Positions 30,234 through 64,000 of a stretch of DNA of 64,000 nucleotides are shown here, in pieces; position 1 is the stretch's first letter, and the number at the start of each line of letters is the position of its first letter. The notes under the pieces were generated by a model, which was not told where the DNA came from, ran no database searches, and saw nothing but the letters and a program-made list of their open reading frames with translations. The DNA lies in NCBI GenBank assembly GCA_022925895.1, contig JAKSYS010000063.1, forward strand, positions 84,965-148,964, in the 5' to 3' direction. This DNA is from Fragilaria crotonensis (lineage: Eukaryota > Bacillariophyta > Fragilariophyceae > Fragilariales > Fragilariaceae). The translations under genes were made by a program, and so were the position numbers.

Positions 30234-30523
30234 TGACAAAACCCTACTTGACTACTGGTATGGTTGAGCTGGTATTGGGTACTGTATGCTTGAATACTGT
30301 ACTACTGTCTGTTTCCTGACACGATACTACATTCTACACACATGGTATGTTTTCTACACAGTTTCTACATGCTTCAGATTATGGAAATCCTACGATTAAA
30401 TTATAATTATTGTTGTTGCGAAATCGATACAAGTACCATCGGTAGATTGTTCGGATTGATCACCCGTTTCAATCTATCATACCACTGTTTTCCCTGTTTT
30501 GTACCGTTGTTTGCTCGCTGTTA
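30234..30523 (+). repeat. 5' LTR of B
   Basis: Length is 290 bp. Compare with 37098-37386, which differs only by CAAGTACC against AAGTACC and by CCC against CCCC. It begins TG and ends TA. Confidence 0.95.
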
Positions 30524-30538
30524 GATTAACAGTCCCGC
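30524..30538 (+). promoter_or_regulatory. Primer-binding site of B, complementary to a tRNA-Asn half
   Basis: GATTAACAGTCCCGC starts directly after the LTR. It is the exact reverse complement of 22578-22592, which is positions 26-40 of the tRNA-Asn(GUU) gene in this window. Complementarity stops at both ends there. The site is in the anticodon arm, not the tRNA 3' end, so priming by a cleaved 5' half of the tRNA is implied. Drosophila copia uses a half-tRNA in this way. Confidence 0.85.
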
Positions 30539-31170
30539 ATTGCTTGTCTTTAACCCGAGAAAGCAAGCGATTTGGTCCATTTGAAGGCCTCAAGTGGATT
30601 TGGTTGCGTTGTGAAAACGTCGTTTGTCGAATCGGCGTATTAAAGTGCTAAGTAGCACCTGCCGTCCCTGTCGTTTTGCGAAGGTTCGAGGCATTCGTGT
30701 GATCTGCATTGAAGCAGATCAGTGTGACCGTCATTGAGACGAATATCGACGCTTTGTTTAGCGGAAAAGGACCATTGTCGCTGGCCCTTCATCGAACGAG
30801 TTCGGAAAGCCAGTTGAAACGGGGTTGTTCTGATTCCAACTGGTACTGACGTTCCTGTGTTCTGACGTACGAGTCGTATATTTCCTAAGTAACGAGGAAG
30901 ATTTGGTCCGAAGTTCCGAAGATTCGGGAAGAAGATTCTTCGGAGATTCGCAATTTGTCACGATTCCCTAAGTAATTTGGACGAGATTTGGTCAAAGGTC
31001 CGAAGATTCGAGATTCAGATTCGTTGAAGATTCTGAGAGTCACCGAGATCCGGAGAGAGAACAAGAATCTTCTGCAACTTCAAGGTCTGTCGGTCAGCCG
31101 GTTTTCCAGATCGAATCTAAGGTCTGTCCTGTGTCCAAAGTTTTTCGACGTCTGTCTGTCCAACGTCATT

Positions 31171-31308
31171 TGAGTCGAGTCGGATCGGAAGTCAACGTCC
31201 GTCCGTCATCCCATTTTGAGTCGAGTCGGATCGGAAGTCAACGTCCGTCCGTCATCCCATTTTGAGTCGAGTCGGATCGGAAGTCAACGTCCGTCCGTCA
31301 TCCCATTT
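31171..31308 (+). repeat. Three 46-bp tandem repeats in the B leader
   Basis: Unit begins TGAGTCGAGTCGGATCGGAA at 31171, 31217 and 31263, in near-identical copies. It lies in the untranslated region before gag, where a packaging or transcription signal could sit; this is inference. Confidence 0.85.
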
Positions 31309-31589
31309 TGATTCGAGACTAACCGTCCGTCTGTCATCCGTTTTTTGGTTACTGAACTTGTTAGTTTTGTGAGTTCGCAATCCGGTGTATTCCGTGGCAT
31401 TGAGACATCAAGCTCCTTTCCTTCAGAAACTTATCACAGTCACCTGCAAGAGGTTCTCAACACAGTTGAGTGAATCGAACCACGTGTCTAACTGTGTAGG
31501 TCCTGCTCGATTGGTGGTTGGTGGTTTGTCCGTCTGTCATCCGTTTTTTGCGAGCTGCATCCCTGACCGGTCTAGCTACCCCTGTTAAG

Positions 31590-33818
31590 ATGGTTTCAAC
31601 CAGACAAACTGTTGAACCAACTCCCTTTGTTCATTTGATGAACAATGTGTTGACCTCTGCCATGTATGCAACTGCATTTGAGGCATGGGGTGTGACTTCG
31701 GTCACTGATATCCTGTCCCTGACCAAGGAAGATATTGAGTCTGAGTTCCCTGGTGCTGATGGAGCAACAACCAGGCTCCGTTTGATGGATCGTAAGAAGG
31801 TCCTTGAAGTCCAAGATTGGTTCCATGAGGAGTGTGAAGATCCTTCTGCAGATGTGTGGTTTGGTTTGACTGCGGAGGTCCTTGAGGAATTCCGCACTGC
31901 TCGTACCGCAATGAAGACTTCCAAGAGCATTCCAAGTTTGACTTCAGGCAATGTTGCACCTGACCCTGCCCCACCAGCTGCTTCTGTTGACCGTGCTGCT
32001 CCTGATTTGGCTTATGAGTTTGCCAAGGCCACAAAGAGGAGCTTCTCTGATCTGAAGCAGTTCAAAGATGCGCATCAGTGGACTTGGTGGCATCGCCATT
32101 TGATTTCAACATCGCGTGCCCAAGGAATTGGGAATGTCTATGATGTCAACTTTGAGCCAACAACTGATGCTGAGAAGAAATTGTTCAAGCTCCAGAATGA
32201 GTTTGCCTTCAGTTGCTTGGAGCAGGCCCTCCATACTGCTGATGGGAAGTTGTTTATCCGTGAGTTTCAAGAGTCTGGAAATGCTCGCGGTGTGTATCAG
32301 CGTTTGGTTGCAACCTACAACACTGGTGAAGCTGGTCGTTTGAAGGCTGAGAAGATTGAGACTGAGTTGCAAGATATGAGACTTGATGTGAGGCAGTGGA
32401 AGAAAGGCTGCCAAGCTTTCTTGACGGCATGGGAGCACAAGATTCGCGACCTTGCTGAGTTGGATCCTGAGGCTGTGACTGAGTCCAAGAAGTGGCGTTG
32501 GCTCCGTCAAGCCGTGTTGCCTCACAAGACCATGGAGGCTGCAATCACCAACTTTGATTCCTTGGATAAGTTTGCGCGCAAGATGACTCCTGATGGTGAT
32601 GGATTGGGTTTTCAGGAGATGTTCAATCAGTTGATGGATGCTGCAACTCGACATGACAAGATTACGAAGGATAATGTTGCCAACCAACAACGTCGTGTCC
32701 AGGAAGGCAAGTTCCAAACTGTCACCAACAAGAAAGGCACTAAGGGTTCCAGTGATGGGAAGAAGGCCGATCCTGCTGTTGTTTGGAAGTATTATTCGCC
32801 TCAAGATTGGGAGAAGTTGTCTGTTGAGAAGAGGAAGCAGATTCTTGAGCAGCGCAAGGTTACTCCGCGACCACCACGTTCCCAACGTGCTAATTCTGCT
32901 TCAACCACCACCACGCAATCGTCGTCAACGGAGGCTCCAGCAAGTGCTGCTCCGATTCCTGCCACTGTGATTGCCAACCAAGCCCAAGTTGATGCTCAGT
33001 CAGTTGTGTCCTCCAGTTCTGCGGTTTCTGGATCTGCTGTCCCTGGATCTACTATCCGTTCAATGCTTTCCAATGCTGCACACTCGCGCCGTGACGATGA
33101 CAGTGTCATGGTTCAGGAAGGGAAGGTTTACCTCCGCGTCAAGATGGCAAATGTTAAGTATCGTTTCCGTGCCCACTCTGCTGCTCGAACTGCTTGTGCT
33201 GGTTCTCTCATTGATGGGGGAGCCAATGGTGGCTTGTGTGGATCTGATGTTTTGATTCTGTCGGAAACTGGCCAACGCTGCGATGTCACCGGTATCACCA
33301 ACAATGCTGTGACCGATTTGCCGATTGTCCAAGCTGCTGGTCTGATTCAAAGCTCCATTGGTCCGATTATTGGTATCTTCAACCAATATGCATCCATTGG
33401 TGATGGAAAGTCTGTGCATTCCTGTGCCCAACTGCGCAGTTTTGGCACTTTGATTGATGATGTCCCTATTGCTTGTGGAGGGACTCAGCGACTTGTGACC
33501 CCTGAAGGTTACATTGTTCCCTTGTCCATTCGTGATGGATTGGCTTACATGGATATGAGTCCCCCTTCTGCTGATGATCTTGACCGCTACCCTCATGTGA
33601 TTTTCACCTCGGACAATGCTTGGGATCCTTCGCTCCTTGACCATGAACATGCTTTGACTCCGGACGTTTATCATGTTGACTACACTCATGGTTTTCAGGA
33701 TCACCGCGTCAATGATTTTGGGAGGTTATCTTTGATCATCAAGCCCGTGTTGAGTATTGTTCTGTGCATGCCCATGAAGCTTCTGTGCACCGCCATGACC
33801 CTCACTATGAAGCCATGA
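31590..33818 (+). CDS. Copia Gag and protease frame of B
   Basis: Starting at the ATG at 31590 (MVSTRQTVEPTPF), 742 residues are read. The first 450 residues are a capsid-like helical Gag. No CCHC zinc knuckle is visible, which is common in one group of diatom copia elements. The protease motif AGSLIDGGANGGLCGSD (near residue 545) has the Asp of a retroviral-type aspartic protease. The frame ends just past 33720-33722, where a G run has one base fewer than needed to continue into pol (DFGEV-IFDHQ). Gag probably packages the RNA, and the protease frees the products. Confidence 0.85.
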   Translation: MVSTRQTVEPTPFVHLMNNVLTSAMYATAFEAWGVTSVTDILSLTKEDIESEFPGADGATTRLRLMDRKKVLEVQDWFHEECEDPSADVWFGLTAEVLEEFRTARTAMKTSKSIPSLTSGNVAPDPAPPAASVDRAAPDLAYEFAKATKRSFSDLKQFKDAHQWTWWHRHLISTSRAQGIGNVYDVNFEPTTDAEKKLFKLQNEFAFSCLEQALHTADGKLFIREFQESGNARGVYQRLVATYNTGEAGRLKAEKIETELQDMRLDVRQWKKGCQAFLTAWEHKIRDLAELDPEAVTESKKWRWLRQAVLPHKTMEAAITNFDSLDKFARKMTPDGDGLGFQEMFNQLMDAATRHDKITKDNVANQQRRVQEGKFQTVTNKKGTKGSSDGKKADPAVVWKYYSPQDWEKLSVEKRKQILEQRKVTPRPPRSQRANSASTTTTQSSSTEAPASAAPIPATVIANQAQVDAQSVVSSSSAVSGSAVPGSTIRSMLSNAAHSRRDDDSVMVQEGKVYLRVKMANVKYRFRAHSAARTACAGSLIDGGANGGLCGSDVLILSETGQRCDVTGITNNAVTDLPIVQAAGLIQSSIGPIIGIFNQYASIGDGKSVHSCAQLRSFGTLIDDVPIACGGTQRLVTPEGYIVPLSIRDGLAYMDMSPPSADDLDRYPHVIFTSDNAWDPSLLDHEHALTPDVYHVDYTHGFQDHRVNDFGRLSLIIKPVLSIVLCMPMKLLCTAMTLTMKP

Positions 33819-36196
33819 GACCCTATCTTGGATGGGTCAACCTTGAGCGTGTGAAGAAGACCTTTGAGAATACGACGCAGTGGTTTCGTGCTTCTGTTCG
33901 CTTGCCGTTTCGCCATCACTTCAAGAGTCGATTTCCTGCTGCAAATGTTCCTCGCCTGCATGAAACTGTTGCAACAGATACTTTCTTCTCGGATGTTCCC
34001 GCTCATGATGACGGCGTTCTCGGTCATGGAGGCGCTACGATGGTCCAAGTCTACTGCGGCAAGGACAGCCAGCTTACTCGTGGCTATCCGATGACTTCAG
34101 AACATGACATGTATCACACACTTGAAGATTTCATTCGCCAAGAAGGTGCCCCTGATGCTCTGCTCAGTGACAATGCTAAGGCTCAGATTGGGAAGAATGT
34201 CCAACAGATTTTGCGGATGTACCGTATTGCTGACTTCCAGTGTGAACCTCACTACCAACATCAGAACTATGCTGAGCGCCGGATTCAAGAGATCAAGAAG
34301 ACTGTCAATGCTTTGTTGGATCGCACCGGTACTCCTGCTGCTTACTGGCTTCTTGCCATGCTCTATGTGATCAATTTGATGAACCATCTTGCTGTTGCTT
34401 CCTTGGATTGGAAGACTCCCTTGGAAGTTGCTCATGGACAGAAGCCTGATATCTCGCCATTCTTGCAATTTCGTTGGTGGGAACCAGTGTATTATGAGGC
34501 TCCGGCGACGAGTGGTTTTCCGTCTGAAAGTGTTGAGAAGACTGGTCGCTGGGTTGGTATTGCTGAACACCAAGGTGATGTGCTGACCTACTTGGTGCTC
34601 ACTGACGACACTCTTCAGGTTATTGCCCGCTCCAATGTTCGCTCTACCCTTTCGCCGACGCATCCCAACTTTCGTGCCTATGCTCCCTCGCCTTCCGATG
34701 GAGGGGAGGATTTGATTCCGTTAAATATCGATCCAGGTGATTCTCCACGTCATGTCAAGGATATCATCTACAATTCGAGCGACCTTGCTGGTGTTAACGT
34801 TGATCCATCGGAACTCAAGCTCCCATACTTCACGCCTGACGAACTTTTGAATCGCACATTTCTTCACGAAGTTGATGGTCAACGCATGCGCGCCCGAGTC
34901 ATTCGGAAGATTATGGATAACGATGCGCACAATCATCAAAATATCAAGTTTTTGCTCGAGATTGGCGCTGGTGAACATGACGAAATTATTGCTTACAATG
35001 AACTTTCGGATTTGGTTGAGCGACAGGTCAATGAGGAGCGAAGCACTGATGATGTGTCCCCGTGGGTCTATGATGACATTATTGCACACCAAGGTCCTTT
35101 GAAGCCGACTGATCCATTTTACAAAGGCTCTTCCTACAATGTTCTTGTTCGCTGGATGAATGGTGAAGAAACCTATGAACCCTTGTATGAAATGATCAAA
35201 GACGATCCAATTTCGGTTGCCAAGTATGCCAAGGAACAAGGATTGCTTGATACTCCAGGTTGGAAGAAGCTTCAGAAGTTTGCGCGTCGGATCAAGAAAT
35301 TTCTGCGCATGGTCAAGCAAGCAAAGCTCCAACATGGGTCTCGTGGAATTCGTTTTAAGTTTGGAGTTCAGGTCCCTCGCAATTGGAAGGAAGCCATGGA
35401 ACTGGATGAGAGAAACAAGTCAACTTTGTGGCGCGACGCAATCAAGAAGGAGATGGACCAGATTGCAGAGTATGGAACTTTCCGCGATCTTGGAAGGGGA
35501 GCTACCGCTCCAGCTGGCTACAAGAAAATCACTGTCCGCCTTGTCTTCGATGTCAAGCATGATCTCCGTCACAAGGCGCGTCTTGTTGCAGGTGGCCATC
35601 TTACTGATCCGCCGAAGGACTCTGTCTATTCAGGTGTTGTTTCTTTGCGAAGCCTTCGTCTTGTTGCACTGTTTGCTGAATTGAATGGCTTACAGCTTTG
35701 GGCTGCCGATGTTGGAAATGCCTACCTTGAAGCTTTGACAAAGGAAAAGGTTTATGTTATTGCTGGTCCAGAGTTTGGGGAGCTGGAGGGTCATATCCTC
35801 CTGATCCATAAGGCTTTGTATGGTCTTCGTACTTCTGGTGCCAGGTGGCATGAACATTTTGCCGACACACTTCGTGATCTTGGATTCACGCCCTGCAAGG
35901 CTGATCCTGATGTTTGGATGAAGAATTGTGGATCGCATTATGAGTATATTTGCGTTTATGTTGATGATCTTGCAATTGCCATGAGAAACCCTGAAGAATT
36001 CATCGATATTTTGGTCAATGATTGTGGTTACAAGCTTAAGGGTGTTGGTCCAATGGAGTATCATCTCGGAGCGGATATCTACCGTGATAGCGATGGCACT
36101 CTCTGCTTTGGAGCCAAGTCCTACATTTCTCGTTTGCTTCGTACCTACGAATCGATCTTTGGGGGAGCAACCAAAGGAATACTCTTCCCCCCTTGA
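33723..36196 (+). CDS. Integrase and reverse transcriptase part of B Pol
   Basis: Homology begins upstream of the first in-frame ATG, so start is set by the frame join near 33722. The integrase core has Asp in ETVATDTFFSD, Asp in DALLSDNAKAQ and Glu in YAERRIQEIK, a DDE triad. The reverse transcriptase has WRDAIKKEMDQI, VRLVFDVK and YVDDLAIAM. The frame ends at FGGATKGILFPP, where a run of five G (36161-36165) holds one base too many. The expected continuation (FGEQPKEYSSPLD) is in the next frame. Confidence 0.85.
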
Positions 36197-53700: not shown

Positions 53701-55319
53701 TCATTCGATGTTGCTTTCGCGAGGCGACGGAGGCGACATCATTCTTGTGTCTAGAACTACACGTTCCGTGTCACTGCTGTTTTTGCTAACATTTGTAAGT
53801 ATGCTTGCAATGGCGTCATCAATCATCGTGTCTATGTTTCCAACTGTTGACGCCTCCGCAACTTCATGTTCAATGATACGTTCCTCCGCCAACGTTAGTT
53901 CATCAATTGCCGCCGCCAATTCTTGATTCAGCTTACGAAGTTCCAACAGGAGTACCTGGCGGTTTGGATCATCTGGGGGAGTAGCATCGATCATATACTT
54001 TGTTTCTTGGATCATGGATTGCTTCCCAGCTACCTTTTTCAAATGCATCGCTACAATGCGATCATTGACTTTCGCCTTCTTTTTCCCCTTGTCTGCAAGT
54101 CGCGACTGGGCGATGCCAGCTGCCTGGATGCATTCGCTCAGAGTGGCTGTTGGCATTGGTGGTGGTGAATTGTCGGGCTCAAATGTTCCAGTGGTAGTTC
54201 TTGTATGTCGAGAGCTTTCATCGTCGTCAACGTCGTACGAATTGCTGGAAGAGCGACGGGTTTTTTGCTTGCTTGATGCCTCCGCATCCAGTTTCCTGCG
54301 ATGAGCTCGTCCTGCGGTCCTCTTTTCAACAAGGGTACTATAGACAGGAGCAGCACTCATAAGAAGATCAGAACGATAGCACAGCATACTGTCATTTTCA
54401 ACGATGGGTCCCACCAGTGCGAATACAATATAGCCGGGAAACGTAAACATTTTAGCTGGTGCCGACACAGCAGAGGAGGCTGACATTGCGCCAGGTTGCT
54501 CCTCGGCGCTATTTCCGTTGAAAGTTCTTTCATCGGTGGCAGTCGAAGTCAACAAACCAGTTCCTCCAGGAGTACAAGCATCAGTATCAGTATGATTGCA
54601 CGATACGAGTCCGATGCCATCAGCAATGGGGTACATGTTCTCACCGTTGTCGACTGTAGCAGCAGTCGTCTCATCAGGATTCAAAATGACGTGCATTTTC
54701 TCCCGCACGTATTGTAGGTAATCATCGTGAACCATACCAGAAGGGAGATTTCCGGTTCTCGCATAATCCCTGTAGGGACTATGTTTGGACATAACACAGG
54801 CCAATGCCTTCTTGCAATTCTTCGTTATTTCTTGCGCCGAGTGAGCAATGTTCGGGCCTTGATGCGATCGTCTTGTTGAAGTTCTTGTGCGGTTCGGTTG
54901 GTGACGTTCTTCTTGCTCCTTTTCCCACTAGACAGCTTGCTTTGGAAGAGGAGGGGTAACGAAATACCCTGAGGACCGCCGACTGGAATAACAACGTGGC
55001 TGCCAAGGCAATGAAGAATTGGCTTCATTACTAGGGATGAGTGTGCGGCGATAAGGCGAGGATCCATTCCAAACGTGTCTCGGCTTTCATAAAGCGAAGA
55101 AAAAACCCCAACGCCAGTCACAAGCTGTTCCGCAAGTCCAATGGAATCCATATCGTTTGCGTCACCAAAATATTTTACTCCAATACTTGCCTCAATCATT
55201 GCTTTTGTAATTGATCCACCCTCGTGATGGCATGCCTGATAGGCAAGGAAGGCTGCAAAGCCTTGCAGTTCTTTGTGAACTGCGGTACCACCGACAAATG
55301 CTACTTCTTTGTTGTTCAT
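53701..55319 (-). pseudogene. Accessory protein of H2, frameshifted
   Basis: ATG 55319 begins MNNKEVAFVGGTAVHKELQGFAAF, homologous to H1's protein. The frame stops at TRRKK (54825). In another frame the protein continues AQEITKNCKKALACVMSKHS and YARTGNLPSGMVHDDYLQYV, then FTFPGYIVFALVGPIV and a coiled coil (IQAAGIAQSRLADKGKKKAK) to the stop at 53701. One base is missing near 54834-54841. The H1 copy is intact through this point (RSLLSRAQEHIKNGKKAL). Confidence 0.8.
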
Positions 55320-55600
55320 GGGAACTTGTTTGAAGTACCAAGGTGATGGTAGCTAATTCGGGTATTTGAGAATTATGAAAACATGTGTCGTCGTGGAGGC
55401 AGCAGATGGAAGACCAGAATTTTTGTTAAAGATATGTATCATTGTTATTTCATCATTATTGTAGGTGAACATATGTCTTGTTATGTTTCTCTTCGATAAG
55501 GGATACAAAATGACAAACTCAAAAAAACAAAAACAAAACCGTATTAAGGTCCTTTCTGGGTCAGATTTGTTTTTGTTTTGTCCTTCGATAAGGATCAGCC

Positions 55601-57961
55601 TTTTAGAACTTAGAACCGATAAAATGGCTTCGGACCACCATTTATCATTAATGCGTTAAATTTTTTTGTGCCATACACAAAACGCTCGCAGTACGTCGAA
55701 TTCGACCGGTATTTATACAAAAGTTGCTCTTTTACACACATCACACAAATAACTGACTGAGTGCTAAACGATATCTGACCTTCATTTCAAAGGAAAATCG
55801 AACTGTCAGATTCGGCTGAGAATTCTATGCTGCCCCTCGAAAATTTCACGCATCACGTTGGGCCAGCCATTTTATGACGCATTTAAGGACCAAATTTTCT
55901 TTATACTTGCCAATTAAATAGTAACTCCTATAACGTCAATATTGATCCTAAACTCATTATTATGTCAGTGGAACAAAAAATACTTGGATATGTTGGTACA
56001 GAATCTACCACAGAAGTAACGTAGCAGTAATAATTGAGATGTGGGATCATTCGGCGAATGCGTGAAAAAAATTCCTGCCAACATATACATTTTACCTCAT
56101 GTACTCATAAAATTTTATGTATGACTTAGAACCAATGCAGTGACAAACGAGGCATGAAAAGGATGCATTTTGAGAAAGATACTGTGAGTCAAAAAATGCA
56201 TTAAACTATTGGATCTAAGCCCATTGTAGACAGTACATGTTCTACAGCACCGGTTCCAATAATCCAGACCTTAACAGTGAAGTGGTCGCCTCAACAGAAT
56301 TGTGTCGGCCTTGTCAATTCTTGTCACATTATTACGTACGGTGTACTTCTACCTTGTGACGCAGAACGTGGTACTTGTTCGTGTGTTATCTCTCTATTGT
56401 TTCAATCTGCATTTTGCAGCATCATTTCGACAGAGCGTCAGAATGCGATTCGGGTGTGGGGTCACTTTAGGCCGTACGCTCATGTCAATTACTACGAATG
56501 TATCCGGATTTCATGCATCCCAAAGCATACCACCGAATACGGCGTCCAACGTGAAGGCTAACGTATGTCAAAACCATACTAAGAGACTACGTACAGTTAT
56601 CACATCTGTACTCCAAGCTCACATGACATGTCGCGGAAAGGGGGAAAACGATCAAGTCCGAACAAACCCTTCAGATCTTATCAACTTAAACATTGTAGAC
56701 AATTCAATCTGAAGAGCTAAAGCCTTTTTATAATACCAGTCATATTTGCCTGTGGATCATTGTACCGACTGTAGATCACGTTGATTGCCCTCTGGGATCT
56801 CTGCCCTGGCAAGTTGAGGACAGTAGGGAGACTCGCATAGCGCCTCAACAAATATGCGACAATGGCAGTCTTCTCCATCCAATGAAAAGAAACGATCGGG
56901 ACCGCAACTCAAGACTCCAATCGCGTCGACAACACACCCTTTTGACTTTGTTCCCATCCTTGAGCATTGCAAGTGCCCATGTCCCGTCCTCTCAAACAAT
57001 TGGCGTAGTACAAGGTAGCAAGCTTCGAACTCACCAGCATTTATAATGAAAGCCATCTTTGGCGAACAATTTTGGTGATCCCCAACAAGTCAAGTTGTAC
57101 CTGGCACTTCCCATGTTATAGTAGTAGAGGTTGCCCAGAGCAGCAGGTAGTAACCATCAAACAGCAGCATGTAAATGTGGTTCAGGCAGGCGAGCCAGTA
57201 GTCGGGATCGTAGCTTTTCTGGCAATAGACCACCCGTCCCTGAGGAATGAAGAAATCAGAGTTCAAAATAGTATTTGTTCACAAACTTCAAAATTGCGCT
57301 CGTCACTCTCTGCCGCATATCATATCGAATGATTCTGGACCACCTTGTGGGACAACAGCTGGAAGCCGAAGATCGCTTTCGGTCAAAAATGCAAGAAATC
57401 CATCACTCCCCTAGACCCACATTCCGCAAATGTACCAGACCTTTGCTGCGTTTGCTGACGCTGTGGCGTGAATCATGCACAGTAGCTATCACAGCATCAA
57501 ACTGTCAAAGATCGTACGCTCTGACCTCTCATGGCAATTTTGAGGTTCGCGGCACCAACGTATCATCAATTATACTCCAAGTAGTATCGACGGTACTTGT
57601 TACTCTTTTTGGTACACATCCTACGGATGGTACGAGTGACGCCAGTGCCAAATTGAAGCAAATTGGGATCAGAATATCCAATTCTGCATGCGCATACGTC
57701 GCATTTTGATATCATTCCGATCCCGGTACTAGCTACACAAATCTACATTCCACATATTATACAGTACTACCGTATTAATTTTCTCGCCTCTTCAAGAATC
57801 TATGCATTTATACCACTTCGGTGGTATTTTCCAGATAATACTCCAGTACCTACTACTGGTAGTAGTACGTCTAATTCAGATGGGAGTAAAAATGTATTGG
57901 AGTACCAGTACTGGTACTAGTACCCAAAAACCAGTAAATGATCAGTCGTTGTATGAAACTC
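55601..57961. other. Intergenic region between H2 and H3
   Basis: No gene is well supported. The part 55620-56300 is AT-rich with no frame. From 56280 to 57720 there are short open frames on both strands, none with a recognised domain. A 99-residue minus frame at 56757-57056 has an even Cys distribution but no homology I can name. Confidence 0.5.
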
Positions 57962-57964
57962 TTA

Positions 57965-57997
57965 GGGTGCATATTATCCGGATGAAATTTGTACTTT
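57965..57997 (+). repeat. Left terminal inverted repeat of H3
   Basis: 33 bp, identical to the inverse of 62530-62562, ending TTTGTACTTT. The TTA at 57962-57964 precedes it. Confidence 0.95.
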
Positions 57998-57999
57998 TT

Positions 58000-58064
58000 G
58001 TACTTTGTACTTTGTACTTTCGAAGTACAAAGTACAAAGTACAAAGTACAAAAAGTACAATGGG
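58000..58064. repeat. Subterminal GTACAAA palindromic array of H3
   Basis: TTTGTAC units on the left half and GTACAAA units on the right half meet at TTTCGAAG, so the region can fold on itself. The right end has comparable units near 62355-62370, 62428-62452 and 62500-62540. These are likely transposase binding sites (inference). Confidence 0.8.
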
Positions 58065-58504
58065 TCACATCCCGAAGCACCAAAATGCAATTTTGACTTT
58101 TGCAATTTCGTTTGTATAGATGTTTTGGGGTTCATCACCCAAAATCCTAACGTTAAGATGGATGCTGTACTGCGGTCGACGCCGGTAACGGTAAGTAGGG
58201 ACGGAAGTGAACATACGCATGCTGGTGAACGGGTGAGGGATGATATCGGCTCTCGAGAAGATATCTCACCCAGTTTGAGCGGGAAGTATTGAATTCCAAT
58301 GTTTCAAGTTAACTTTCCTCCAACTTTGGTGCAATATAATCCGTTGAGGTAGAACCTTCAGAAGATGACAATTGTCCCGCCCAACAAACTCAAGCCCACT
58401 CTGCTTTCACAATTGTTCCCTCCCAGAGTACTCTGTCCTCACTTTTTGGCTCAAGCACTTTGAAAGCCTTTGGCCTGCATCTCCACACACAAAATTCCAG
58501 CATC

Positions 58505-59854
58505 ATGTCATCCTCATCATTAGAATCTGATTCTATTTTGAATAGTACTGCTGGATCCGGCGATTATGATTCAGATTCTGACATTGACACTGACGATGAC
58601 AAGATGGACCATAAGAACCATCGCAAGAAACTACGCTACCTGCTATATCTTCTTCTGATTCGAAGGCAACACCTTTGCCAACGCCAACCAAAATTTGCTC
58701 CTCCAAGATTGGTATGGACTGATTATGTGTCTCAACTCGTTCAACAAAATGAATTTTCTGTCACATTCCGTATGTCACTTGTCGCTTTCAACAAGCTGGT
58801 GGACATTCTTCGGGATGATCTGGAAGTGCATCTCCATCAAGCACTCCGATCGTCAAAAAAGAATGGTCCGATTCAACCCGAATTGGTTGTTGCCATGTCC
58901 TTGCGCTGGTTGGCAGGTGGTCAATGGCAAGATATTAAAAAAGTCTACGGCGTCAGCAAAGGCCACTTCTACTATCTTCGAAGCAAGTTTATGAATGCGG
59001 TAGTTGGTTGCCCAACCCTTGAAATACGGCTACCAGATTCATCGGACATTGAAGGCTTGCAGCGTCTTGCTCTACAGTTTGAGGCCACTGCATCGTCGCC
59101 AGTTTTGATAGGATGTGTTGGAGCCTTGGATGGTTTGACGGTATTTGTTAACTCTCCCACAGCATCAGAGGCAGAGAACGTATTGGCATATTACTCAGGT
59201 CATTACAAGCATGACAGTTTAAATGTCCAGGCCCTTTCCGATTACCGGGGCAAGTTTTTATACTTTGCTGTTGCTGCGCCTGGGAGTTTTCCTGATTCGA
59301 GTGCCCTTGCCTTGACCAGATTGAAGAATTGGATTGATTCCTTGCCGTCTGGTTTTTATGTTGTGGCGGACAATGCATACATCATATCGGAACATGTTCT
59401 GGTACCATTTTCAGGAATTCAGCGACATGTTCCACAGAACAGTAGCTACAACTACTTCCTCAGCCAATTGAGGATTCGTGTGGAGCAAGCCTTTGGTCAA
59501 TTTTCTGTTAAATGGAGGATTATCCGCAAGCCATTGGAAACCAGATTAAGAACGTCCAGCATTCTTCTGTGCACATGTGCTAGGCTTCACAACTTTATAA
59601 TCGATACTGACTGGCAAGGGAATGAGGAAGTAACGTCTGCGGATGTTGTGGGAAATCTTAATGAAATTTACCGGCCAAATCTGACGCCCTTTCGTAGCCA
59701 ACCTGGAACATCCTTTCTTCGAGATATGATAGTGAAGCACATTGAAGAGAATGGATACCGACGTCCATGTTACAATCGCCTTCGCAACGATGACAGCAAT
59801 AGTACTTCGACACTATTGAATTTTGAAGAGTATGAAGCGATGCAGTTGATGTAG
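58505..59854 (+). CDS. Harbinger-type DDE transposase of H3
   Basis: Read from the ATG at 58505, 449 residues, intact. After an acidic Ser/Asp start, the helical domain has RMSLVAFNKLVDIL and a helix-turn-helix (MSLRWLAGGQWQDIKKVYGV). The DDE_4 core has Asp in VGALDGLTVFV, Asp in VVADNAYII and Glu in IRVEQAFGQFSVKWRII. It is clearly different from the H1/H2 transposases and closer to HARBI1-like proteins of the generic IS5/PIF kind. It should recognise the perfect TIRs. Confidence 0.9.
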   Translation: MSSSSLESDSILNSTAGSGDYDSDSDIDTDDDKMDHKNHRKKLRYLLYLLLIRRQHLCQRQPKFAPPRLVWTDYVSQLVQQNEFSVTFRMSLVAFNKLVDILRDDLEVHLHQALRSSKKNGPIQPELVVAMSLRWLAGGQWQDIKKVYGVSKGHFYYLRSKFMNAVVGCPTLEIRLPDSSDIEGLQRLALQFEATASSPVLIGCVGALDGLTVFVNSPTASEAENVLAYYSGHYKHDSLNVQALSDYRGKFLYFAVAAPGSFPDSSALALTRLKNWIDSLPSGFYVVADNAYIISEHVLVPFSGIQRHVPQNSSYNYFLSQLRIRVEQAFGQFSVKWRIIRKPLETRLRTSSILLCTCARLHNFIIDTDWQGNEEVTSADVVGNLNEIYRPNLTPFRSQPGTSFLRDMIVKHIEENGYRRPCYNRLRNDDSNSTSTLLNFEEYEAMQLM

Positions 59855-59889
59855 AAATGCAAACTATGCTAACGGTGTAGAATATCTTT

Positions 59890-61443
59890 TTAAACTCTCA
59901 CCGTGCGTGGGTTCCAATCATGGAAACCATTGACATCCCAAGCCCTTCCAATCAAATCCTTTGATCCCTTCACACTGAAATACGCATGATTATCCTCCGT
60001 CTGGAACGTGGTGGGAAGGGGAAGGAAGTATTCCAAGAAGGGATTATCGTCCATGAGGTTTCTCATGAATGATAGAGGCTCCGCACGGATCAAATAAAAA
60101 ACTCTCGCATCCGCAACATGATCACCCAGTGACTTGACAGCCCCGTCTTCTTTATTCACGGCAGCAACGATGTAGTATACACCATCGTAGCGATAAAGTA
60201 CCTTCTTTCCATCAGAATCAGGGAAGTAATTACTCTTCATGCGGTTGCCCTTGGATGATCGGAATACTCGAACCGGTTGCTGTTTCACAAAGCTTCTTAA
60301 CAATGCCTTAGGATGGGAATGATCACCAACGACATAAGTCAGGAAAGGAAATTTATCTTCATCGCAGGCCCGTGCCAATTTACAAACAATTAGCGATGGG
60401 CACCCAATCTCTTTGTTTCCGGAAATATTCCCATGCCCATTTCGATGTGCGTGCGAGTTGAATAAGTAGTCGCGCGAGTAACAATCTCCTTCCTCTAGCT
60501 CATTGCACATATTCCCAAACACATACTGGTTGGTGCGCACCGGAGCCTCAAGACTTGTAACACTCGAACCATGGACTCGGTTTGCCTGTGCAACGAGGGT
60601 GTGGAAGGTTGCCTCGTATAACTTGACTGTTGCCTCGGTCGCAATGTAAATGGGATGGTTGACTCCAAATTCCTTGTCAGCTGCCAAATCGGAGAGTTCC
60701 TTTAGTGCAACTCTCCATTTCTTCAAACTGGTATCAACTGCATCTGACATGGATGCTACCATTGTGACGTCAAAGGCTTCTACTGCCATCCTCTTTTTCT
60801 CCCGAATGTATTCATCCTTTGCAGCAGTACTGGATGCACTTGCAATGTCAGACTCTGCTGTGTTTCGCTCCGACGTGGAAAGAAAGCGGAGAATTGCATT
60901 GTCAGTTTCTTCCTTTGAGTTGGATGTCAGCAGTGATCCCTTGTGCTTGAATCGTTTGGCTCTTGGGGTATGGAAACCATGCATTGTCTCCTGAAGCTGT
61001 GCGGTAGCAGCAGGTAGACCAGGTACAGATGATTCAGCAAACACATCCCGACTCAACTCCGCCTTCATTAGGGACTCAATGTTTTCAGCGCCTGTTGCTG
61101 TAACCATATTGTGAAAGTAGAGTAAGTATGATTTGGAACCAACCCTGTCTTCAAATCTAGCGTGGTCCCCAGAAACAGATTTATGAGTAACATAATACTG
61201 ATGGGTGATCCATCTGATAAATTGAGCAACATCGCGACCATCAAGACAATCAAAATCTTCCGGATTCTCAAGTTCATAAAGCATGTGTGGTGTTTGAATG
61301 ACATCCAGGTAAGAGTTATCTCCCTTGTTGCCATCAGAAACACCCGCAGCAGGTTTGCCAGTATTGTTGTTGTACTGGTCAGCCATATTATCCCAAATGG
61401 ACTTGTGACGATAACCACCAACATCCAATTCTGCCCGATTCAT
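59890..61443 (-). CDS. SRA/YDG-like domain protein carried by H3
   Basis: Read from the ATG at 61443, 517 residues. Residues 308-455 resemble the SRA (SET- and RING-associated) fold: QYVFGNMCN at its start, then HRNGHGNISGNKEIGCPSLI, KALLRSFVKQQPVRVFR and VLYRYDGVYYIVAAV. The order of the GI(S/H)G, PVRV and YRYDG blocks is the family signature; the GGYEDD segment is replaced by a divergent stretch (CDEDKFPFLTYV). SRA domains bind methylated or hemimethylated cytosine, as in UHRF1 and plant SUVH. Residues 1-300 are helical with a basic stretch (PRAKRFKHKG) and no named domain. It could direct the element to methylated DNA or protect it (inference). Spacing to the transposase stop is 35 bp. Confidence 0.75.
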   Translation of the reverse strand: MNRAELDVGGYRHKSIWDNMADQYNNNTGKPAAGVSDGNKGDNSYLDVIQTPHMLYELENPEDFDCLDGRDVAQFIRWITHQYYVTHKSVSGDHARFEDRVGSKSYLLYFHNMVTATGAENIESLMKAELSRDVFAESSVPGLPAATAQLQETMHGFHTPRAKRFKHKGSLLTSNSKEETDNAILRFLSTSERNTAESDIASASSTAAKDEYIREKKRMAVEAFDVTMVASMSDAVDTSLKKWRVALKELSDLAADKEFGVNHPIYIATEATVKLYEATFHTLVAQANRVHGSSVTSLEAPVRTNQYVFGNMCNELEEGDCYSRDYLFNSHAHRNGHGNISGNKEIGCPSLIVCKLARACDEDKFPFLTYVVGDHSHPKALLRSFVKQQPVRVFRSSKGNRMKSNYFPDSDGKKVLYRYDGVYYIVAAVNKEDGAVKSLGDHVADARVFYLIRAEPLSFMRNLMDDNPFLEYFLPLPTTFQTEDNHAYFSVKGSKDLIGRAWDVNGFHDWNPRTVRV

Positions 61444-61504
61444 TTTCTTTCCAGTCGCTAAAACCAAATGTCGATTCTGTTCCGAGAACCATAAGTTGAT
61501 AATT

Positions 61505-62248
61505 CTAAAGTACGAACCAGTTTTTTGTCACGGCTTTTGGGCGGGTGGTTTTGCTTTGATACTTTGGGGCTTTCTTCCTGGGTAAATCCCCACTAGAATC
61601 GTTGGCCTTCTGCATCCCCATTCGACCAATGGAGGCATAAATATTGTCAGATGTCACGCGTGCAGCAATGAGTTGGGCCACTTCCTGTTTTTTCTTCTGT
61701 CGGTACCCCGATATCTTCTGGGATGCACAGAACAGTTGTAATTCACTTAGCAACAACTTGGAAACGGAAATACCCGCAATCGAGACAAGGGCAAGAGTAG
61801 TGTTGGCTCCATCAGGCACATTCTCCAGAACACATTGCGATAGTGTCAACTTCTTTATGAACTCTCGACGCTTGTTGGCCTTGTCTGTCCTGGTGGCAAC
61901 TGGATCCCCTGGCGTGTGACCACCATCAATAATATCCTCAAAATCCCCGTCCATCACCTGCTGAGTAACAACAGCCATACTAGGTGCGGAAACTTCTTGT
62001 CTATCAGCAGATGCAATGACACTAAGATGATGCTGGAAGTCGTCAGGGCTTTCAAAAGCCCGTTTGTGTTTAGCGAAACATGGAAAACAGGTTGTGTGAT
62101 AAAATATGCCTGCATCTTCGCACAGTTCACCACAGATGGCATGAACATTACACTGACAGGCAGGGCATGCATGTCTTCCATCAGGAGCACCAGCAGCTTT
62201 GCAGATACAAAGTTCTTTGGCAGCACAGCAATTCATTTCCATGGACAT
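61505..62248 (-). CDS. Cys-rich zinc-binding and SAP-like protein carried by H3
   Basis: The product has 247 residues from ATG 62248. The N-terminal 55 residues hold many Cys and His (CCAAKELCICKAAG, RHACPACQCNVHAICGELC, YHTTCFPC), with spacing like a PHD/RING-type treble-clef finger. Near residues 160-200, LLLSELQLFCASQKISGYRQ followed by KKKQEVAQLIAARV resembles a SAP DNA-binding motif. The C-terminus is basic (KKAPKYQSKTTRPKAVTKN). It lies 61 bp upstream of the SRA-like gene and on the same strand, so a functional unit is suggested. No exact homolog is known to me. Confidence 0.7.
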   Translation of the reverse strand: MSMEMNCCAAKELCICKAAGAPDGRHACPACQCNVHAICGELCEDAGIFYHTTCFPCFAKHKRAFESPDDFQHHLSVIASADRQEVSAPSMAVVTQQVMDGDFEDIIDGGHTPGDPVATRTDKANKRREFIKKLTLSQCVLENVPDGANTTLALVSIAGISVSKLLLSELQLFCASQKISGYRQKKKQEVAQLIAARVTSDNIYASIGRMGMQKANDSSGDLPRKKAPKYQSKTTRPKAVTKNWFVL

Positions 62249-62529
62249 GATGCAAAGTGTTTAGTTGTCGTAGCGCAGACCTGACGTACTGTAGTATGGT
62301 GCCATTTGATGATGCTCACCAGAAAGTCCTGACACAAATTCTTAATGCCACATCCCAAATTTTGCAAAAAGTACAAAAAGTACAATCCGGGTTCGCCTAA
62401 CATCGACAATGTTATTGAAAATGTTATTGTCTTTTTGTACTTTTGAAAGTACAAAACCCGGAAACAAAAGTACATTGTTTCCGGGTTGTTGTTCCGGGTT
62501 TTGTACTTTTGAAAGTACAAAAGTACAAT

Positions 62530-62562
62530 AAAGTACAAATTTCATCCGGATAATATGCACCC
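62530..62562 (-). repeat. Right terminal inverted repeat of H3
   Basis: Exact inverse of 57965-57997. TTA at 62563-62565 follows and is also the left flank of H4. Confidence 0.95.
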
Positions 62563-62565
62563 TTA

Positions 62566-63856
62566 GGCGCGTTCTTAACTCAGCAATTTTCGGGTAGGAT
62601 GCTGGTAGGATGGTAGGAGGCAACGGAGTTGATAACACCATTATAACGCTCAAATTTTTATCCTACTTCTCCATTCTCAACTCAGTTTTCCGTCCTCTCA
62701 TCCAACTTTATTTACTTAGGAAAACGACCTTGCTTCTACCTAATTAAAAGTCTATCATGTGTGACGAAGAACTCGTGTTTCATTCTCAAGGTCACCTATG
62801 TAAAATGCGAAGAAGAGTCTGAGCATTGGTACTTCCACATGTACATCTACAGATTTGATTTTTTGAAATAAAACATGCAGGGCAATGTGACGACGTCACG
62901 TTGTATGTGGTAGGATGAAAAAGCCTCCACGCCTGTTTCATCCTACCGTAGGATGCAAAATTGCCTCCTACCATCTGTTCAGGGTTTTTACGGTCGAATA
63001 ACGTCAAAAAACGAATTTAACCGAAAAATCATCCTACCCTCCTACTCCGTTCCAAAAAAAGAGTGCCATTTGATTTTCTATTAGGGTTCTCATTTGGTGT
63101 CTTTTGGTCATTTTGCTGTAGACGAGCAGTATGTTTCCACGTTTCGGCGATGCTCGCGTTGTCTCAACGGCCATTACTTAGATATAATTCCGCTAAAGTT
63201 TAAAAAATTCCGCCTATGCTGCCTGTCATACCTGTCCTTTCATTGACGCACACATTATTTACATAGGGAATGATCATTAATAAAAATATTCATGGTTTTG
63301 TCTTGACACAGTTTGAAAGACATTTACTTAGCAATATCTGAAAGTACCAAAACTGTCGTTTGCCCGGATTGAAAAATGCATTTAAGTGTTCCCTCACAAA
63401 CGGTCCTACTTGGTCGTAGACACAAACGACGCCATGTCCTGCGGCGGTTACGTTCCCGACAAAAATTTCGTCGATTTCCGTGCTTTTTGAGCTCCTTCAC
63501 CAAGCTGAAAACGAGTTTCCGACTTTTCTGCCCAGTAAGTAAGTTGTTCATTTTTGTCCTCCGAGAAGGTCTTAACTTGGGCTCAAGGTCCGTGGTGTCA
63601 CCAATCGAAACTTAAAGTCTAAAAACTAGACTAATAGATGGCTTATTTTTAACTTTTAAAACTGAGAAATGAACATTCAAACGATCGCGCTTGTATTCAA
63701 TGTTATACATGGATGTGTTCCTTTCATCACGAACAATGCAAATGACATGACGTTTCGGTGAAATGCCAGAATTTACCTTACTGTTTGGTCAAATGGCACT
63801 CTTTTTTTGGAACGGAGTACCATCCTACCCGGAAATTGCTGAGTTAAGAACGCCCC
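62566..63856. mobile_element. Non-autonomous Harbinger-like element H4
   Basis: Inverted repeats of about 36 bp with two mismatches: GGCGCGTTCTTAACTCAGC at the left, and GCTGAGTTAAGAACGCCCC at the right end. TTA flanks both sides (62563-62565, 63857-63859). There is no transposase frame. A TA-flanked MITE sits inside it. CATCCTACC words recur inside both ends. Confidence 0.88.
63045..63817. mobile_element. TA-flanked MITE inside H4
   Basis: Perfect 29-bp inverted repeats (63045-63073 and 63789-63817) start CTCCGTTCC and contain a seven-A run before GAGTGCCATTTGA. They are flanked by TA (63043-63044 and 63818-63819), suggesting a Tc1/mariner-type mobiliser. No protein frame is convincing within it. 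Confidence 0.88.
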
Positions 63857-63859
63857 TTA

Positions 63860-64000
63860 GTCTACTCCGAGTACACAGTTGCACATTAATACTGGAGTAT
63901 CGCCCGTAATCGCTGAACATAATCGGAACGTGAATCCCGAACAGTGACTCGCAACTCGCAACACGAACTTTTTTGACTCCGTATGACATTGTTTATGCGT
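63860..64000. other. Right edge of the window
   Basis: Flank of H4. Short palindromic words (CTACTCCGAGTAC) are present; no gene is seen. Confidence 0.5.

Follow-up and report, generated by a model that had tools for sequence, protein, structure and literature searches.

We analysed a stretch of 64,000 nucleotides from the diatom Fragilaria crotonensis (assembly GCA_022925895.1, contig JAKSYS010000063.1, positions 84,965 to 148,964; hereafter the window), in which a Harbinger-type transposon, H3, occupies positions 57965-62562 with TTA on either side. In its basic form H3 carries two genes, a transposase and an accessory gene that we call ORF1, and a sub-lineage has gained a separate third gene, AlkB-SRA, which stands tail-to-tail with the transposase and encodes a 2-oxoglutarate (2OG)-Fe(II) oxygenase fused to an SRA domain. 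Two incomplete copies display this third gene, and a complete element would have held all three. Judged from its sequence, the 525-amino acid (aa) protein predicted from the window copy contains such an SRA domain, which was not an original part of the ORF1 gene, and AlkB-SRA is probably a travelling transposon cargo that acts on host DNA marks. The window copy is best read as a decayed derivative that is devoid of the eraser. We hold the structural history of the H3 lineage with high confidence and consider its combination with the cargo reading, a step less firmly, to be the probable account.

The SRA domain, which the initial annotation had proposed from conserved sequence blocks, was recognised by curated profiles. 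The 525-aa protein exceeds the Pfam cut-off for SAD_SRA (35.0 versus 30.7 bits, residues 323-440, E 1.5e-8), and its only other Pfam match, RuBisCO_large, falls below its own cut-off (13.8 versus 30.1). The profile of alignment A1, which comprised 18 of the 20 AlkB-SRA homologues (P0019 and P0020 were excluded), found the TagI SRA endonuclease (2.1e-5) and UHRF2 (2.9e-5) among the solved structures, and with the C-terminal part, the profile search at E ≤1 retrieved no solved-structure sequences other than those of the SRA proteins TagI, UHRF1 and UHRF2; the window protein alone retrieved only UHRF2, at E 0.02. The SRA of UHRF1 recognises methylcytosine using a base-flipping pocket and a finger loop. 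The alignment with UHRF2 pairs the GNISGNK block with the AGNKR stretch of that protein, the finger loop is placed differently by the TagI and UHRF2 alignments, and the pocket residues are not confidently placed. The window-type SRA is akin by sequence profile to the SRA domains of UHRF1, UHRF2 and TagI, but unlike in those proteins, no RING, PHD or HNH partner was found. The earlier suggestion that the element splits UHRF1-like modules between its genes was rejected, as no PHD or RING domain passed a cut-off: the window proteins gave no match to either even at E 10, the ORF1 relatives showed weak hits to PHD_2 in L004 (9.4 bits versus 28) and to TTC3_DZIP3_dom in two of 26 ORF1 members (best E 0.0077), and the partner of the SRA in the relatives is an AlkB-type oxygenase.

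In these relatives, the SRA type of the window forms the C-terminal end of AlkB-SRA proteins, and in the window it has been joined in frame to the ORF1 core. P0022, an ORF1 protein that has no SRA, aligns up to the junction, and P0007, an AlkB-SRA protein, aligns from the junction onward; the window SRA segment is 84.5% identical to P0007 over 226 residues and 90% identical to P0010 over 184. Two other H3-type loci that hold an SRA, on contigs C71 and C656, bracket the same point in the DNA: C71 tracks the window element over its positions 526-2606 and the ORF1 match of C656 begins at 2608, which places the junction at about window positions 60570-60576. The window copy lacks all of the AlkB domain together with the beginning of AlkB-SRA and the acidic tail of ORF1, and the AlkB part gave no tblastn match in window positions 55001-64000 at E 1e-4. 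When the 525-aa protein was searched against the genome, many of the 32 matches spanned parts of residues 1-311 only and others parts of residues 273-525 only. Of its 31 homologues, one was the window's own, and the SRA family was found in five of the other 30. Because none of these 30 joins the ORF1 core and the SRA in one protein, and the 32 genome matches include no second copy, the window copy is the only one known to carry the fusion.

Nine contigs carry AlkB-SRA, complete or as fragments (C413, C180, C732, C578, C410, C656, C65, C71 and that of the window), with only the AlkB part on C410 and only the SRA part in the window. In the protein L014 (C413), AlkB and SRA both score above their Pfam cut-offs; in L018 (C180) only SRA does so, although its AlkB part aligns by tblastn. 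Among the 20 database homologues of L014, both domains were called in 12, SRA only in two, AlkB only in five and none in one. The AlkB part of the relatives matches the 2OG-FeII_Oxy_2 profile with HxD...H and RxxxxxR present; it resembles ALKBH2 and ALKBH3 in its fold and its metal and 2OG residues, but differs from them in being fused to an SRA, and in the window copy this part is absent. Pfam searches of the genome detected SRA at six places and AlkB at seven, and since C732 was the sole family member among the latter, most of the AlkB-SRA members lie below the reach of the Pfam AlkB search. In an SRA tree of 23 rows, which included 15 of the 18 P rows of A1 (P0016, P0017 and P0018 were dropped as too short in the SRA), the window, C71, C656, P0006, P0007 and P0010 were grouped at 99/98; C71 forms a very long branch whose exact position is unsure. 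None of 54 pattern-matching viral-contig stretches encoded a relative of AlkB-SRA, in a search from which near records may be missing. A cytosine methyltransferase family had 13 genome matches, fragments included. On C413 (1627-2785), a second, decayed AlkB-SRA copy without the SRA part lies directly upstream of the intact one as a tandem duplicate. One of the six places with SRA, L054 (C207:178300-180900), is a 507-aa frame that was unmatched by the AlkB-SRA search, falls outside that family and is possibly the diatom's own SRA protein.

The placement of AlkB-SRA in the genome points to its association with mobile elements. We mapped 15 H3-type loci (C107, C109, C228, C246, C301, C328, C394, C428, C447, C517, C644, C656, C71, C807 and the window), and left out the distant C163 and the unfetched match places. 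The second part of ORF1 was present in 14 of these loci (not in C71) and the first part in 13 (not in C71 or C644). Among the three that hold an SRA, it is fused to ORF1 in the window only. On C656, ORF1 is followed further on by a decayed AlkB-SRA on the same strand and then by the contig end, and on C71, the remains of AlkB and SRA lie tail-to-tail with an H3 transposase, and a right element end with 2 mismatches in 20 is also present. The same arrangement recurs beside other genes. On C732, AlkB-SRA is tail-to-tail with the transposase of a second Harbinger type, cut by the contig end (DDE_Tnp_4 41.1 bits; 27.6% identity to the H3 transposase over 70 residues), and on C413 and C578 with a helicase gene (DEAD 39.9 bits versus 26 in one copy) that has 63 genome matches, fragments included, and whose family is a candidate mobile-like one. 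An element-type neighbour stood tail-to-tail within about 110 bases at five of the six readable loci (the window, C71, C732, C413 and C578, but not C180), a count that omits C656 and C65, which end with their contigs, and C410, which has no SRA. The helicase gene, at L013/L037 (C578:27724-29319 and 30443-34204) and C413:4872-8004, is of the DEAD type with a Cys/His-rich front. Distant pairs of an ORF1-like match (23-34% identical) and a transposase (41% identical), not counted among the H3-type loci, were observed at C163:55046/56064, C208:51125/52708 and C579:14966/16461.

Besides the transposase, the initial annotation had described two genes on one strand, of which one would combine a Cys cluster with a SAP-like helix pair. 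Two minus-strand open frames are indeed present (59890-61467, 525 aa, and 61505-62248, 247 aa), but they are one gene, ORF1, in the relatives: C428, C228, C301 and C109 hold both parts in single open frames of 645, 662, 645 and 652 aa. The halves of the window ORF1 lie in different frames because the short A run that separates them differs in length by one base from that of seven of the eight relatives examined, the eighth, C656, not being alignable there. Two separate genes were therefore rejected, and an intron between the halves is disfavoured, since the relatives hold one uninterrupted frame and a frame change is the simpler account. As to the Cys cluster, the sole hit of the 247-aa frame was a sub-threshold zinc finger (Znf_SCAND3, 18.9 bits versus 27), a family matched in six of the 26 ORF1 members (best E 9.6e-5); the SAP-like part did not find support, with no SAP match at E 0.1 among the same 26 members. 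The predicted structure of ORF1 was poor (mean predicted local distance difference test score (pLDDT) 55.9, predicted template modelling score 0.27) and Foldseek returned no match for this model at E 0.001 or better. The ORF1 profile had a single match among the solved structures, at E 0.97; the ORF1 alignment, A2, comprised 20 of 25 ORF1-type homologues (P0025, P0026, P0042, P0043 and P0046 were excluded).

The perfect terminal inverted repeats with TTA duplications and the intact transposase of the initial annotation were both recovered (Table 1). The transposase matches DDE_Tnp_4 (PF13359) at 80.1 bits against a cut-off of 24.8 (E 1.8e-22) over profile positions 1-158 of 158. In the available part of PMC4482050, the PIF/Harbinger (PHIS) superfamily and its groups rest on the transposase and the target site duplication, and a Myb/SANT accessory gene is usual rather than defining. 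H3 belongs to this class by its alignable DDE transposase, 3-bp TWA target duplication and terminal inverted repeats, and it shares with the elements described there an accessory second gene and short non-autonomous copies. It departs from them in the Cys-rich and SAP-like front of its accessory gene, for which no Myb/SANT match was obtained at E 0.1 among the 26 ORF1 members (the ORF1 model is too poor to exclude one), and in the third cargo gene of a sub-lineage.

Table 1. Features of the H3 copy in the window (window positions)
Feature	Position	Strand	Basis or remark
Target site duplication TTA, left	57962..57964	.	Read from the sequence
Left terminal inverted repeat, 33 nt	57965..57997	+	Identical to the right one
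Transposase gene, ATG at 58505	58460..59854	+	DDE_Tnp_4; GALDG, ADNAY and RVEQAFG blocks
SRA segment, from the C-terminal end of the AlkB-SRA gene, in-frame continuation of ORF1	59890..60573	-	Pfam SAD_SRA
Fusion junction: ORF1 side to ...QANRV, AlkB-SRA side from ...GSSVTSL	60570..60576	-	Protein comparison P0022/P0007; DNA comparison C656/C71
ORF1 second part (helical core, no known domain)	60574..61467	-	14 of 15 mapped H3-type loci, not C71; P0022 88%
ORF1 first part (Cys-rich and SAP-like stretch)	61505..62248	-	247-aa frame; 13 of 15 mapped H3-type loci; weak Znf_SCAND3
Right terminal inverted repeat	62530..62562	-	
Target site duplication TTA, right	62563..62565	.	

A search of the 62.1-Mb genome for further copies with the same ends, as the initial annotation had proposed, found them 29 times with up to three mismatches, the two of the window counted; because the reversed-pattern control gave none, these ends are non-random. 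Fourteen stretches with H3-like ends were fetched (L040-L053), and ten of them (L040-L048 and L053) had paired ends at a spacing of 0.9-1.7 kb. These short copies have about 170 left and 215 right bases in common with H3, at 75-98% identity piece by piece, and in nine of the ten the right bases retain 90-96% identity, so that the family was mobile not very long ago. Equal TTA or TAA occurred at both ends in seven of the eight copies L040-L047, the exception being L041 (TTA/TTT); the duplications were unequal in L048 and L053, and a single end was visible in L049-L052. No tblastn match to the coding parts of H3 was obtained in the 14 stretches at E 0.01. L049 is 86% identical in DNA to element positions 71-716 and, in a separate search, encoded the first 42 transposase residues. 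A second element, with inverted ends of 40 nt at 93% and no ORF of at least 80 aa lying within its bounds, occupies window positions 62566-63856; as it begins at the right TTA of H3 and closes at another TTA, two TTA-flanked elements abut there with one common target duplication. Elsewhere in the genome, a silicon transporter family had 19 matches, fragments included; three of these follow one another in one 1456-aa frame at C97:29749-33762 and two in a 1008-aa frame at C771:21664-24330, which suggests fused multi-unit silicon transporters.

Several observations weigh against this account of a cargo gene and its decayed remnant. Among the 15 H3-type loci mapped, 12 lack the SRA, which only the window, C656 and C71 hold, and no complete three-gene element was seen, as C656 runs off its contig and C71 is incomplete, without a recognisable ORF1 or left end in the 8.0 kb read. 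Synonymous divergence between the window and C656 is 0.45 for ORF1 and 0.77 for the SRA, a mismatch which implies that the window copy may be a mosaic rather than a plain deletion from a C656-like parent; the ratio of nonsynonymous to synonymous divergence is biased by the decay of C656 and C71, and 35 of 47 divergence comparisons were saturated. The AlkB-SRA model is of low confidence in its SRA part (pLDDT 36-71 by block, residues 401-610), and the best 50 VIA-align entries for this model were AlkB-type and other 2OG oxygenases, with no SRA chain among them, which does not exclude such chains. AlkB enzymes are chiefly known for repairing N-alkyl damage rather than for removing 5-methylcytosine. 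Finally, none of the element proteins used as queries matched in the 8.6 kb read around the AlkB-SRA of C180 (a 713-aa frame), and some of the AlkB-SRA copies may accordingly be host genes. The initial annotation had named H3 copies devoid of both accessory genes as a sign that host sequence was captured in one copy only; this was half borne out, since the SRA is mostly missing and the Cys-rich/SAP-like part is retained in 13 of the 15 loci. Host capture in the window copy alone was nevertheless rejected, because the SRAs of the window, C656 and C71 share one clade with the database AlkB-SRA proteins.

A broader possibility is that AlkB-SRA genes are repair or epigenetic genes of the diatom host, alongside which transposons inserted or which they picked up without use. 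The absence of a transposase near C180 in the stretch read would fit this, as would the judgement, in the available part of PMC12730594, that the transfer of TET/JBP genes in fungi is passive. We nonetheless consider it unlikely, as the H3 copies of AlkB-SRA form one clade that is conserved as protein, and the gene keeps its tail-to-tail place by an element-type gene at nearly all of the readable loci (five of six). Less likely still is that an error of sequencing or assembly produced the frame break or the fusion. The break does come down to one base in an A run, but the junction is flanked by intact element ends whose target duplications match, and an easy misassembly is improbable because the nearest separate parents found are only about 84-90% identical. 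It is slightly harder to credit that the fusion is a working new protein, in which the ORF1 core is tethered to a methyl-DNA reader and directs the transposase towards methylated DNA or keeps it off unmethylated DNA. The fusion does have an open frame of 545 codons, its junction falls at a domain border and leaves the SRA whole, and H3 moved not very long ago; yet the fusion was seen once, and as the frame change cuts the first half of ORF1 off from it, the fusion most likely has no role. A selected function of the fused protein itself is similarly improbable and would not be expected, because the AlkB domain is absent and ORF1 is broken. That the SRA match is spurious and reflects some other fold, belonging to the accessory gene of the transposon itself, is hardly credible, for although the sequence immediately preceding the PVRV block lacks 13 residues relative to TagI, model confidence is low there and no SRA chain was among the structural matches listed, the window protein, L014 and L018 all pass the curated SRA cut-off and the profile search with the C-terminal part met SRA proteins only.

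In the history that we prefer, an H3 sub-lineage would have acquired AlkB-SRA beside the transposase and ORF1, and the window copy would have lost the segment between the ORF1 core and the SRA, which thereby met in frame, with the frame change additionally breaking its ORF1. From what is known of these domains, the SRA part may locate a modified base, whether in DNA of the element itself or of the host, and the AlkB part may oxidise that base and so weaken methylation-based silencing; the window fusion would retain a binding role at most and most likely none. We put forward the anti-silencing role of AlkB-SRA only tentatively, at somewhat less than even chances. More doubtful is a wider scenario in which at least two Harbinger-type lineages and the helicase-bearing mobile-like family have repeatedly carried this reader-eraser to remove a silencing mark from their own DNA, and in which one copy lost the eraser and had the reader grafted onto its accessory protein as a methyl-sensing transposition factor.

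Surveys of DNA-modification proteins by Iyer, Zhang and Aravind may reportedly list AlkB-SRA fusions, and this fusion in itself may therefore already have been published. DNA transposons with a DNA-modification cargo are already known, and AlkB-SRA as a cargo appears to be new: no report of an SRA in Harbinger elements or of AlkB-SRA in transposons was found among the literature matches listed, as judged by title and the start of the abstract. As far as the available part of PMC12730594 goes, fungal DNA transposons of several types carry TET/JBP genes, which have been discussed as an escape from methylation-based silencing. The diatom elements resemble these, the PHISTA Harbinger lineage included, in that a 2OG-Fe(II) oxygenase able to act on modified bases is the cargo of unrelated types of DNA transposon, but here the oxygenase is of the AlkB type, is fused to an SRA and has a diatom host; neither 'SRA' nor 'AlkB' occurs in the main text of that paper. 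HarbingerS of oomycetes, cited in the same paper, is likewise a Harbinger-type element with a chromatin-modifying gene, which there is a SET histone methyltransferase and here a DNA oxygenase-reader.

The value of the finding lies in the family that it revealed, the window copy itself being a decayed derivative. If AlkB-SRA is an anti-silencing cargo, stramenopile transposons would have reached the strategy proposed for the fungal TET/JBP elements independently, by means of another oxygenase that comes with a built-in reader. It would then become testable which DNA mark diatoms use against their transposons and on which base an SRA-steered AlkB acts. The AlkB-SRA family thus hints at mobile DNA that carries its own tool against host DNA marking.
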